The notes under the pieces are model-generated. The model was not told where the DNA came from and made no database searches. It saw only the letters and a program-made list of their open reading frames with translations. 64,000 bases of DNA from Flavivirga jejuensis (GTDB taxonomy: Bacteria; Bacteroidota; Bacteroidia; Flavobacteriales; Flavobacteriaceae). The number at the start of each line of letters is the position of its first letter. Positions within the stretch are counted from its first letter, which is position 1. Positions 12,063 through 20,848 of the stretch are shown here, piece after piece. The stretch covers positions 1 through 64,000 of the forward strand of contig NZ_JAUOEL010000006.1 in the NCBI RefSeq assembly GCF_030540765.1, in the 5' to 3' direction. A program made the position numbers and the translations under genes.

Positions 12063-12689
12063 TTATTTATGTCTTCCTTTCAATTCTTCTTCAATATCCT
12101 TTAAGGTAAATCCCTTTGCTTGCAGTAACATTAAATAGTGAAATAATAGATCTGCCGATTCGTATAAAAACAACTCATCATTAGTATCCATCGCCTCAAT
12201 AACTGTTTCTACAGCCTCCTCTCCTACTTTTTGAGCTATTTTATTGATGCCTTTTTCAAATAAACTTGCGACATAAGACTTTTTAGCGTCTTTGCTTGAA
12301 ATACGTTCTGTAATAATAGCTTCTAAAGTTGAGAAAAATCCATAGGATGGTTTGTTTTCAGTTTGCCAACATGTATCTGTTCCTTTATGGCATGTAGGTC
12401 CAACAGGATTTACCTGAATTAAGAGTGTATCATTATCACAATCATTTTTTATATCAACTAAATTGAGAAAGTTACCACTTTCTTCTCCTTTAGTCCATAA
12501 ACGTTGCTTGCTTCTGCTAAAAAAAGTAACTTGTTTCGTTTCAATGGTTTTTTGGTAGGCGTCATTATTCATATAGCCCAACATTAATACATTTTTAGTT
12601 GTCGCATCTTGAATGATTGCAGGTATAAGCCCTCCTTCTAACTTCTCCCAAGAGGGAGAAATGATAGCTGTATTTTTATTATTTGTCAT
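12063..12689 (-). CDS. hisIE: bifunctional phosphoribosyl-AMP cyclohydrolase / phosphoribosyl-ATP pyrophosphatase
   Basis: This catalyses steps 2 and 3 of histidine synthesis. The HisI domain covers about residues 1-115. It has LWTKGEESGNFL at 64-75, the DCDND metal site at 83-87, and the zinc-site cysteines in TCHKGTDTC (C100, C107). The HisE domain covers about 118-205, with EKGINKIAQKVGEEAVETVIEA and ESADLLFHYL. The HisIE fusion is common in Bacteroidota. It is the last gene of the his operon, 46 bases after hisF. Confidence 0.96.
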   Translation of the reverse strand: MTNNKNTAIISPSWEKLEGGLIPAIIQDATTKNVLMLGYMNNDAYQKTIETKQVTFFSRSKQRLWTKGEESGNFLNLVDIKNDCDNDTLLIQVNPVGPTCHKGTDTCWQTENKPSYGFFSTLEAIITERISSKDAKKSYVASLFEKGINKIAQKVGEEAVETVIEAMDTNDELFLYESADLLFHYLMLLQAKGFTLKDIEEELKGRHK

Positions 12690-18852: not shown

Positions 18853-19710
18853 CTAAACAACCATTTTTTCAATAGGACAAACTAAGATACCTTGAGCACC
18901 ATTATTTTTTAATTCATCAATAACATCCCAAAATTCATTTTTGCTTATAACGGAATGTACAGAACTCCATCCTTCTTGTGCTAAAGGTAAAACGGTTGGG
19001 CTTTTCATACCTGGCAATACGTTAATAATATCCTGGATTTTTTCGTTAGGAGCATTCAATAAAATATATTTTGATTGTCTTCCTTTTAATACGGATTGAA
19101 TTCTAAACTGAATTTTATCAAGAATAGCCTGCTTTTCTTCATTAAGAATCGGAGAAACAGCTAATACTGCTTCAGATTTTAAAATCATTTCAACCTCCTT
19201 TAAGTTGTTCTTAAACAAGGTACTTCCACTAGAAACAATATCACAAATAGCATCTGCTAGCCCAATGTTTGGAGCTATTTCTACCGAACCATTAATAATG
19301 TGTAGGTTAGCAGAAATATTATTCTTTTCTAAATAGCTTTTAACGGTGTTTGGATAAGAGGTCGCAATACGTTTGCCTTCTAAATCTTTTATACCTTTAT
19401 AGTCAACTGACTTTGGTACAGCGATACAAACTCTACAGGTTGAAAATCCTAATTTTTCGGCAACACGAATGTCATTACCTTTTTCAATTAGAACGTTTTC
19501 TCCAATAATAGCGGCATCTACTACCCCATCTTTAAGATATTGTGGGATATCCCCGTTTCTTAGGTAAAATACTTCTACTGGAAAGTTTCTGGCTGATGCT
19601 TTTAATTGATCTTTTCCATTATCGATAGATATACCGATGTCTTTTAAAATTCTCATCGAATCTTCGTTTAAACGACCCGATTTCTGCACTGCAATTCTTA
19701 ATTTACTCAT
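18853..19710 (-). CDS. hisG: ATP phosphoribosyltransferase, long form
   Basis: HisG joins ATP and PRPP in the first, feedback-inhibited step of histidine synthesis. The 285 residues correspond to the long form: two catalytic lobes (about 1-205) plus the C-terminal histidine-binding ACT-like domain (about 210-285). LRIAVQKSGRL opens the catalytic domain. The PRPP-loop-like region DAICDIVSSGSTLFKNNL is near 160-175. I start at the ATG at 19710 (MSKLRIAVQKSG). An in-frame TTG nine codons earlier would lie in the attenuator hairpin region. It is the first structural gene of the his operon. Confidence 0.95.
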   Translation of the reverse strand: MSKLRIAVQKSGRLNEDSMRILKDIGISIDNGKDQLKASARNFPVEVFYLRNGDIPQYLKDGVVDAAIIGENVLIEKGNDIRVAEKLGFSTCRVCIAVPKSVDYKGIKDLEGKRIATSYPNTVKSYLEKNNISANLHIINGSVEIAPNIGLADAICDIVSSGSTLFKNNLKEVEMILKSEAVLAVSPILNEEKQAILDKIQFRIQSVLKGRQSKYILLNAPNEKIQDIINVLPGMKSPTVLPLAQEGWSSVHSVISKNEFWDVIDELKNNGAQGILVCPIEKMVV

Positions 19711-19760
19711 TTTGTTGTTTTTATGAGTTTGAAACAATCAATTTGGAATTAAAACTAAAA

Positions 19761-19787
19761 AACCCGCTTGATTGTCTCAAACGGGTT
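19761..19787 (-). terminator. his operon attenuator terminator
   Basis: Read on the minus strand, AACCCG...CGGGTT with an inner TTG/CAA extension forms a G/C-rich stem followed by TTTTTTAG. It lies between the leader peptide and hisG. Its 5' side and loop (19775-19783) can instead pair for 9 bp (one G-U) with TCTCAAGCG inside the end of the leader ORF (19826-19834). That is the expected antiterminator. Confidence 0.85.
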
Positions 19788-19819
19788 TAAAAAATATGTT
19801 GATTTTATTCAATACATTT

Positions 19820-19876
19820 TCAGTTCGCTTGAGAGCAAATATGAAAATGATGATGATGTAATTGAATAAAGGTCAT
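19820..19876 (-). CDS. hisL: his operon leader peptide
   Basis: An ATG-started, 18-residue ORF reads MTFIQLHHHHFHICSQAN and stops with TGA. Five of six consecutive codons (7-10 and 12) are histidine, which is diagnostic of a ribosome-sensing attenuator. It lies 109 bases ahead of hisG, and the terminator stem begins 32 bases after its stop. Segment TTTATTCAAT just before the His codons (19861-19870) is perfectly complementary to ATTGAATAAA after the stop (19804-19813). A ribosome stalled on the His codons would cover the first segment. A ribosome at the stop would cover the antiterminator segment. Confidence 0.85.
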   Translation of the reverse strand: MTFIQLHHHHFHICSQAN

Positions 19877-19893
19877 GTTTTGTTTTATTTCTG

Positions 19894-19926
19894 CAAATAT
19901 CTATAATTTATATTTATAATTCCAAA
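19894..19926 (-). promoter_or_regulatory. candidate his operon promoter
   Basis: On the minus strand a TTTG (19923-19926) is followed after 21 bases by GATATTTG (19894-19901), one base off the -7 consensus TAnnTTTG. Transcription would start around 19887, about 11 bases before the leader ATG, which suits an attenuator. Confidence 0.4.
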
Positions 19927-20032: not shown

Positions 20033-20848
20033 CTATTGATTTCCAAGTATAATAGGCATTCCGCTATCTCCAGAACCAATAACTACAACTTTACTATTTG
20101 GTGATTCTGATAATTTAATGGTTGCTTCGATACCTTTATCTTGAAGAATTTTATCTGTTAAAGACGCGCTTAAAATACGGTTAGCATCTGCTTTACCTTG
20201 CGCTTCAATAATTACTTTTTCTGCTTCTTTTGCAGCTGTAACCAATCTAAATTCATATTCTAAAGACTCTTGTTCTTGCCTTAGTTTACGTTCAATAGCT
20301 TCTTTTATGGTATTTGGTAAAGTAACATCTCTTACTAATACTTCATTCAATTGTACATATTGTTTATCAAGAATCTTTTTCGTTTCAGCAAAAATTTCAT
20401 CTTGAATAGCGTCACGCTTACTAGAATATAATTGCTCTGGCGTGTAACGTCCAACAACACTACGAGCAGCACTACGAATAGCTGGTTGAATAACACGTTG
20501 TAAATAATTTTCTCCTAATGATTGGTGCAAGTTTCCTAAATCATTGTAAATAGGCTCATACCATGCTGAAGCATCAATTTGAATTTCAAGTCCATTAGAT
20601 GAAAGTACTTTCATTTTTTCGAAAAGTTCCTGTTGACGTACTTCATAAATTATAACTTTATTCCATGGTGCTACAATATGAAACCCTTCTCCTAAAGGGG
20701 GGGCATCTGTAACAACTCCATTATCGAATGTTTTGTATAGAACGCCTGCCTCACCAGAACCTATAGTTACAGCCGATTTTGCTAATATTACAACAAGTAT
20801 AATTGCAACAATAATTACAGGTAATGCAATTTTTGGTAATTTTTCCAT
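20033..20848 (-). CDS. prohibitin/SPFH (Band 7) family membrane protein
   Basis: A 271-residue protein with one N-terminal membrane anchor (about 7-28, LPVIIVAIILVVILA). An SPFH domain follows at about 29-190, with VTIGSGEAGVLYKTFDNGV and EVRQQELFEKMKVLSSNGLEIQ. The C-terminal part has a helical EAEKVIIEAQGKADA-type stretch (about 206-222). Such proteins form large rings on the membrane and help organise proteases or microdomains. The gene follows the VWA-like gene after 13 bases, so the two are probably cotranscribed. The exact role is unknown. Confidence 0.9.
   Translation of the reverse strand: MEKLPKIALPVIIVAIILVVILAKSAVTIGSGEAGVLYKTFDNGVVTDAPPLGEGFHIVAPWNKVIIYEVRQQELFEKMKVLSSNGLEIQIDASAWYEPIYNDLGNLHQSLGENYLQRVIQPAIRSAARSVVGRYTPEQLYSSKRDAIQDEIFAETKKILDKQYVQLNEVLVRDVTLPNTIKEAIERKLRQEQESLEYEFRLVTAAKEAEKVIIEAQGKADANRILSASLTDKILQDKGIEATIKLSESPNSKVVVIGSGDSGMPIILGNQ

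Follow-up and report, generated by a model that had tools for sequence, protein, structure and literature searches.

The leader region of the his operon of Flavivirga jejuensis (Flavobacteriaceae) is, with a probability that we put at about 0.92, a ribosome-mediated transcription attenuator of that operon. Support comes from the coding character of a leader open reading frame (ORF), an intrinsic terminator, a pairing between strand B at the end of the leader ORF and the 5′ arm of the terminator (T5), and spacing on the scale of a ribosome, as judged by comparison of relatives and by folding; ribosome stalling, coupling of RNA polymerase to the ribosome, and a response to histidine are what we infer from them. 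The original prediction, made from one genome's sequence, had read the region as a ribosome-sensing his attenuator, and that reading is supported in that the His run, the terminator, the antiterminator strand, and a 15-nt segment near hisG are all kept in relatives. Its coordinates for the leader ORF, the terminator, and three complementarities were correct to the base. Conservation and covariation in relatives had been named beforehand as the check that could refute it, and both the antiterminator strand and the 15-nt segment turned out to be conserved and to covary. The most novel part, and the one for which no precedent was found, is the 15-nt segment, here called E, which had been mentioned last as a "possible additional fold."

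The window is the whole stretch of DNA that was analyzed, 64,000 nucleotides corresponding to positions 1 to 64,000 of contig NZ_JAUOEL010000006.1, and the attenuator region lies on its minus strand. The his operon is complete (hisG-D-C-B-H-A-F-IE) and reaches down to position 12063 on the same strand, with the best NCBIfam match of each of its eight genes above the curated cutoff of that family. Among the matches listed, the nearest named HisG proteins were from Flavivirga and were 97 to 98% identical. The gene upstream of the leader (20033 to 20848, minus strand) resembles HflC/HflK, with matches only below curated cutoffs. The 221-nt leader region as a whole folds at −46.5 kcal/mol (z = −6.03), and its features are collected in Table 1.

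Table 1. Features of the predicted his attenuator region, in window coordinates.
Feature	Position	Strand	Remark
Promoter-like TTTG	19926-19923	minus	read from sequence
Promoter-like GATATTTG	19901-19894	minus	one mismatch to TAnnTTTG
Leader peptide ORF MTFIQLHHHHFHICSQAN, 18 codons	19820..19876	minus	ATG 19876-19874, stop 19822-19820
Segment 1 TTTATTCAAT	19861..19870	minus	predicted to pair with 19813-19804 when ribosome-free
His codons CAT x4, TTT, CAT (putative sensor)	19841..19858	minus	CAT x4 at 19858-19847
Antiterminator strand B TCTCAAGCG, last sense codons	19826..19834	minus	predicted to pair with T5
Local hairpin between leader stop and terminator	19790..19821	minus	nested inside antiterminator fold
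Segment 1 partner ATTGAATAAA	19804..19813	minus	also inside 5′ side of local hairpin
Intrinsic terminator hairpin, 12 bp	19760..19788	minus	T run 19762-19757
Terminator 5′ arm T5	19788-19777	minus	12-bp stem
Terminator loop	19776-19772	minus	between T5 and T3
Terminator 3′ arm T3	19771-19760	minus	12-bp stem
Segment E TTGATTGTTTCAAAC	19727..19741	minus	complementary to terminator apex and loop, 19782-19768
hisG, first his operon gene	18853..19710	minus	best NCBIfam match above curated cutoff

HisG was detected in 166 of 199 genomes of Flavobacteriaceae and in 12 of 12 genomes of the window's genus. Upstream DNA was compared for 160 genomes, made up of 150 of the 166 and 10 further members of the genus, and alignment A1 contains 105 of these sequences, with the most divergent ones omitted. 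A leader ORF (at least two His codons within eight codons) together with a terminator was present in 159 of the 160 upstream regions, the single exception being a 129-nt contig end. In the window, the leader ORF ends 109 nt before hisG, with the 12-bp terminator between the two, and the anticipated 18-residue His-rich leader is indeed there, having 18 codons with four consecutive CAT codons and a fifth His codon at 19843 to 19841. At least three His codons within eight codons were found in 155 of the 159 relatives (97.5%; 155 of 160 when all upstream regions are counted), compared to 1.8% of 1,590 shuffled sequences and 1.3% of 159 reverse strands. Moreover, every gap run in the leader columns of A1 (310 of 310) was a multiple of three, and gap runs after the leader stop mostly were not. 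The gap lengths and the excess of the His run over controls therefore indicate that the leader is kept as a reading frame. We conclude that the leader is a conserved short ORF, rich in His codons and predicted to be translated.

Two promoter-like boxes ahead of the leader ORF, TTTG and GATATTTG, are separated by 21 nt and were absent from the original prediction. The Bacteroidota −33/−7 promoter consensus is TTTG/TAnnTTTG, and the pair (19894 to 19926, minus strand) would yield a leader mRNA with a short 5′ untranslated region. In 54 of the 159 relatives, the 60 nt ahead of the leader ATG contained an exact TAnnTTTG, compared to 7 of 159 in a control stretch. The last TTTG ahead of the leader ended 4 to 20 nt from the leader start in 123 of 159, a count that stands without a TTTG-only control. 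Some leader mRNAs in relatives may be nearly leaderless.

The strong terminator expected after the leader was recovered as a 12-bp stem with a T run and was the sole terminator-like site in 501 bases scanned, where shuffled sequences gave a mean of 0.1. A hairpin of at least 7 bp with at least three G-C pairs was present in 159 of 159 relatives, and 5 of the 11 pairs in the terminator consensus showed changes on both sides. We conclude that an intrinsic terminator is located between the leader ORF and the first structural gene.

The proposed pairing of the leader end with the terminator arm also held up. Strand B, TCTCAAGCG (19834 to 19826), faces CGTTTGAGA of the terminator in a helix of 9 bp with one G-U (P = 0.0062 against 5,000 shuffles), and the helix is conserved and covaries in relatives, in which it is formed by T5 and the bases CTCAAGCG of the final sense codons. 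At least eight contiguous B:T5 pairs were found in 121 of 159 relatives versus 8.6% of shuffled strands, and 94.3% of 907 cells were paired in A1, where no slid register exceeded 48.4%. Changes on both sides affected 25 cells versus 11.8 in shuffles; pairs with two-sided change numbered 3 versus 1.6, a value reached by 48 of 500 shuffles. When partners were shuffled in A1, 92.2% of cells were still paired because the B and T5 columns vary little. The leader peptide retains its terminal Gln-Ala (last sense codons, 19826 to 19834), and that conservation probably reflects a constraint on the antiterminator RNA that resembles protein conservation.

The outermost B:T5 pair joins a leader base to a base of the terminator loop and therefore supports the antiterminator, not the terminator. 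The base before CTCARGCG matched the loop base in 66 of 106 genomes with both motifs, where 36 were expected and 52 was the maximum in 10,000 shuffles. Relatedness inflates such loop-match counts. On a hisG tree of 86 rows, the B base changed 17 times, the loop base 5 times, and the two together 4 times; off-register loop positions on the same tree gave 3, 1, 1, and 1 joint changes with the B base. In the window, the antiterminator fold reaches −19 kcal/mol (z = −5.06). We conclude that the predicted antiterminator is mutually exclusive with the terminator, the two sharing the 5′ arm in the modeled folds.

Distances between codons and pairing strands were counted in the 127 relatives with a recognizable B strand. 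In 105 of them, the uninterrupted His run had its last codon starting exactly 15 nt before B, and in 121 the leader stop began 12 nt after the start of B. The footprint of a ribosome reaches about 12 nt beyond its A site. We conclude, as judged from the spacing only, that a ribosome at the control codons in the His run would leave B just free and that a ribosome at the stop would cover it. One misfit to this spacing is that 59 of the 127 leaders, the window's included, have a further His codon just 9 nt ahead of B, and a ribosome stalled there would overlap B.

In simulated nascent chains with a His-stalled ribosome and T3 not yet made, B:T5 formed in 152 of 155 cases, with a mean of 0.95. Equilibrium folding with a stalled ribosome gave 0.70 for T5:T3 versus 0.12 for B, and the antiterminator must therefore act kinetically. 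In the mechanism that we propose, ample charged His-tRNA would allow the ribosome to reach the leader stop and cover B, such that the T5:T3 terminator hairpin would end transcription. When His-tRNA is scarce, the ribosome would stall in the His run, cover segment 1, and leave B free; B would then pair with T5 around the local hairpin before T3 is made, and RNA polymerase would read into hisG. If the leader is not translated at all, segment 1 could pair with its partner and the terminator could form.

The helix of segment 1 stood in part. As originally proposed, TTTATTCAAT and ATTGAATAAA form 10 perfect base pairs, and the helix is above chance (P = 0.0086 in 5,000 shuffles), but it found no covariation support within its own leader group. 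A leader's own partner fit better than a swapped partner in 122 of 159 relatives, a count that mostly separates groups. Within the 70 TTATTCA leaders the helix hardly varies, and the own partner was lower in 24 of 70 (P = 0.79); within 85 divergent leaders support was weak (49 of 85; P = 0.014). The local hairpin (19821 to 19790), which had not been predicted, has halves that fit each other better than swapped halves in 114 of 155 relatives and in 56 of 85 divergent leaders, and singly it beat shuffles at 0.05 in only 27% of 159. We regard the segment 1 helix as the no-translation state, and as less well supported than the other parts of the attenuator.

A structured 5′ region could also mean that the leader RNA senses histidine or tRNA directly, as a riboswitch or T-box, with the ORF incidental, and T-boxes precede his genes in other phyla (PMC9413887). 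We consider direct sensing extremely unlikely: a scan of the window brought no Rfam family up to its gathering score, relatives preserve the ORF as coding sequence, and the His run stands at one distance from B. No T-box match was found in the window either at the gathering score or up to an E value of 5, and the enterobacterial His_leader family had no match at the gathering score and was absent among the 12 matches up to an E value of 5. Those weak matches were to unrelated small RNAs, leaders, and others, and assignment to a known RNA family was rejected.

A covariance model of the attenuator was used to search more widely, with filters that lose weak matches. At an E value of at most 1e-6, 76 of the 296 genomes sampled from the order matched the model, including 48 from the window's own family, as did 46 of 395 genomes of a phylum sample that overlaps the order sample, including 40 from the own family. 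In a class sample, 96 of 395 genomes reached an E value of at most 1e-3, and many of these weak matches may be plain terminators. Of 44 matches outside the family that were fetched, 42 carried a His leader with T5 paired to the leader end and the other two were terminators only. The 42 span 21 families, three of which (f83, f101, and f105) belong to other classes of the phylum. We conclude that the his attenuator reaches across the phylum and that it was found by the model in a minority of the sampled genomes.

The 15-nt complement near hisG was borne out as well. Segment E pairs with 19782 to 19768 over 15 nt with one G-U, a fit equaled by none of 5,000 shuffles, and it is separated from the hisG ATG by 16 nt. 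In relatives, E is conserved and covaries with the terminator loop on the hisG tree. In swap tests, its own partner gave −11.15 kcal/mol versus −8.18 kcal/mol for swapped partners, and 108 of 139 genomes favored the own partner. Of the 147 genomes with room for E, 105 showed at least 8 Watson-Crick pairs of 12, and comparison to shuffles was significant at 0.05 in 79 of the 147 and at 0.01 in 70.

Chance complementarity combined with shared descent is favored by 26 of the 147 genomes that had at least 8 Watson-Crick pairs and no significance, by 42 that had fewer pairs, and by loop positions 11 and 12, which gave only 2 joint changes each with E, below off-register values of 6 and 4. On the tree of 96 rows with E, however, loop positions 8, 9, and 10 changed 8, 9, and 9 times, and 7, 7, and 6 of these were joint changes with E; there is some linkage between positions 8 and 9, with off-register values of 5 and 4. 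Moreover, among the 31 rows scored outside the family, 24 were significant at 0.05 and 17 at 0.01, with different stems and loops (for example, in L269, L309, and L310), and we give chance and descent very little credence.

Outside the family, the terminator stem GTCTGA faces TCAGAC in E, and GCCTGA faces TCAGGC in L268 and L305 and not in L297 and L299. In L269 (f21), L309 (f2), and L310 (f123), the terminator stem and loop are very unlike those of the window, and E differs accordingly. No significant E was found in L306 (f122), L312 (f105), L316 and L319 (f17), L321 (f63), and L322 (f13), in which leader and terminator were kept; E therefore can be lost or was gained separately.

A 12- to 15-bp dyad before the first gene of an operon could instead be a DNA inverted repeat bound by a protein rather than an RNA helix. 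Against this, G-U replaced a Watson-Crick pair 117 times versus 16 times for A-C, an excess that is partly one of composition, the terminator strand being rich in G and T, and not decisive, and the spacing of the arms varies, with 0 to 101 nt from the end of T3 to the start of E among relatives. A DNA repeat is thus very improbable. We conclude that E is, in all likelihood, a real RNA strand near hisG that pairs with the terminator apex and loop.

The function of E is far less certain than the pairing, and any single function that we might assign to it is doubtful. One tentative reading is that E is one strand of a translational gate and in read-through mRNA pairs either with the terminator apex or near or with the hisG start, such that leaky transcripts are translated differently. 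Consistent with a gate, E is placed more tightly relative to hisG than to the terminator: its end lay 13 to 17 nt before hisG in 70 of 105 genomes, and the best 5-nt range for its distance to the terminator held 51 of 105. Outside the family, the end of E lay 13 to 21 nt before hisG in 24 of 24 significant rows. Furthermore, the potential of E to pair with the hisG start exceeded that of shuffles at 0.05 in 65 of the 98 genomes positive for E and in 0 of the 29 others, and in RNA ending at E with a ribosome at the stop, T5:E reached 0.47 versus 0.45 for T5:T3 (n = 85). In most full-length folds, T5:E was a minor state (means of 0.06 to 0.09), and it reached 0.38 in the window with a ribosome at the stop. 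The modeled folds suggest that E and T3 would be about equally matched only for as long as the RNA stops at E and that T3 would mostly win in longer RNA.

Other comparisons argue against a gate. At sites where the terminator apex and the hisG start differ, Watson-Crick pairing of E was exclusive to T5 in 160 cases and to hisG in 19, although this count leans towards T5 through the choice of rows and register for their fit to it; the terminator apex and the hisG start did not track each other (6.79 versus 6.73 when swapped); and keeping T3 off T5 left the hisG start more open in only 36 of 100 cases. A main conserved role of E in hiding the hisG start codon was rejected, as in the first two of these comparisons, one of them the biased count, E tracks the terminator and not hisG. 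Short G-C-rich palindromic inserts were seen directly before hisG in L033, L035, L092, L125, L144, and L152, and they shift E to roughly 33 to 47 nt from the hisG start, not about 16. An Rfam scan of 12 loci, several with such inserts, returned nothing at an E value of 0.01.

The loop and upper arm to which E is complementary belong to the very terminator that would end the short leader RNA, and E could be the site on hisG mRNA that the terminated leader RNA targets in trans, in the manner of rnTrpL. Trans-acting attenuator RNAs are known, as described in parts of the literature (PMC7298713 and others), and make a second role for the terminated leader RNA conceivable here too, with trans action in this case hypothetical. 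The same pairing is nevertheless available in cis at a higher local concentration, and the leader RNA holds T5 within its own hairpin; a target in trans is unlikely. Our leading guess, weakly held, is that E senses the availability of T5 and tunes the translation of hisG accordingly in read-through transcripts. T5 would then switch among three partners, namely B within the leader ORF, T3, and E, and one ribosome decision might thereby be read twice in many Bacteroidota families, a suggestion that we advance with reservation. The two readouts would perhaps be RNA polymerase at the terminator first and then the ribosome starting hisG.

Attenuation of his operons by ribosome stalling is classical, and the Salmonella and Escherichia coli leader, as outlined in one account, encodes 16 residues with 7 His and forms A:B, B:C, D:E, and E:F hairpins (PMC4046918). 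The element described here resembles that attenuator, to the extent of that outline, in its His-codon leader, its terminator before hisG, and pairings decided by ribosome position, and the original prediction of enterobacterial logic in unrelated sequence agrees with the same alternative-pairing logic and the lack of an Rfam His_leader match in the window. Unlike the seven His codons in a row of the enterobacterial leader so outlined, the leaders described here mostly have three to five His codons within eight. Here, in addition, the antiterminator strand lies within the last sense codons, the local hairpin lies inside the antiterminator, and the extra strand E precedes hisG. We know of no strand like E in any enterobacterial his leader.

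Within the Bacteroidota, our literature search found one relevant paper, a 2021 study of Flavobacterium psychrophilum, parts of which report strong clues for leader-peptide attenuation before amino acid operons and a 5′ element of hisG that is conserved in other genera and has no Rfam match (PMC9723704). That element, from the same family, is very probably the same as the one described here, and the relevant parts of the account contain no pairing scheme, spacing, E, or reach beyond the family (PMC9723704). In Firmicutes, a different phylum, His runs with a terminator/antiterminator are described, in the corresponding sections, before hisZ and hisS copies (PMC2965389) and in his operons (PMC9413887), and the main text of the latter has no occurrence of the word "Bacteroidetes." Leader-peptide-like small ORFs are described in a Bacteroides thetaiotaomicron transcriptome paper, with histidine and hisG not mentioned in the portions concerned (PMC7366714). 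The attenuator is thus not new in kind; new here are its own sequence, its own strand order, and its presence in many families, and no Rfam model matches it. Vitreschak 2004 reportedly mentions Bacteroidetes/Chlorobi, and an earlier his example from that group is therefore possible.

Ribosome-mediated attenuation works only with a ribosome closely behind RNA polymerase, and ribosomes of Bacteroidota rely little on Shine-Dalgarno pairing. With a conserved attenuator in that phylum whose spacing is tuned to the ribosome footprint, transcription-translation coupling becomes directly testable there, and the model of the element can be added to RNA annotation. No precedent for E was found in the literature on leader peptides, on attenuation of his operons, and on attenuator RNAs that act in trans, and precedent elsewhere is possible; to our knowledge, a second control layer that acts through a third terminator partner has no described counterpart. 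Such a second layer is suggested by the retention of this third partner in many families, a short way ahead of hisG.
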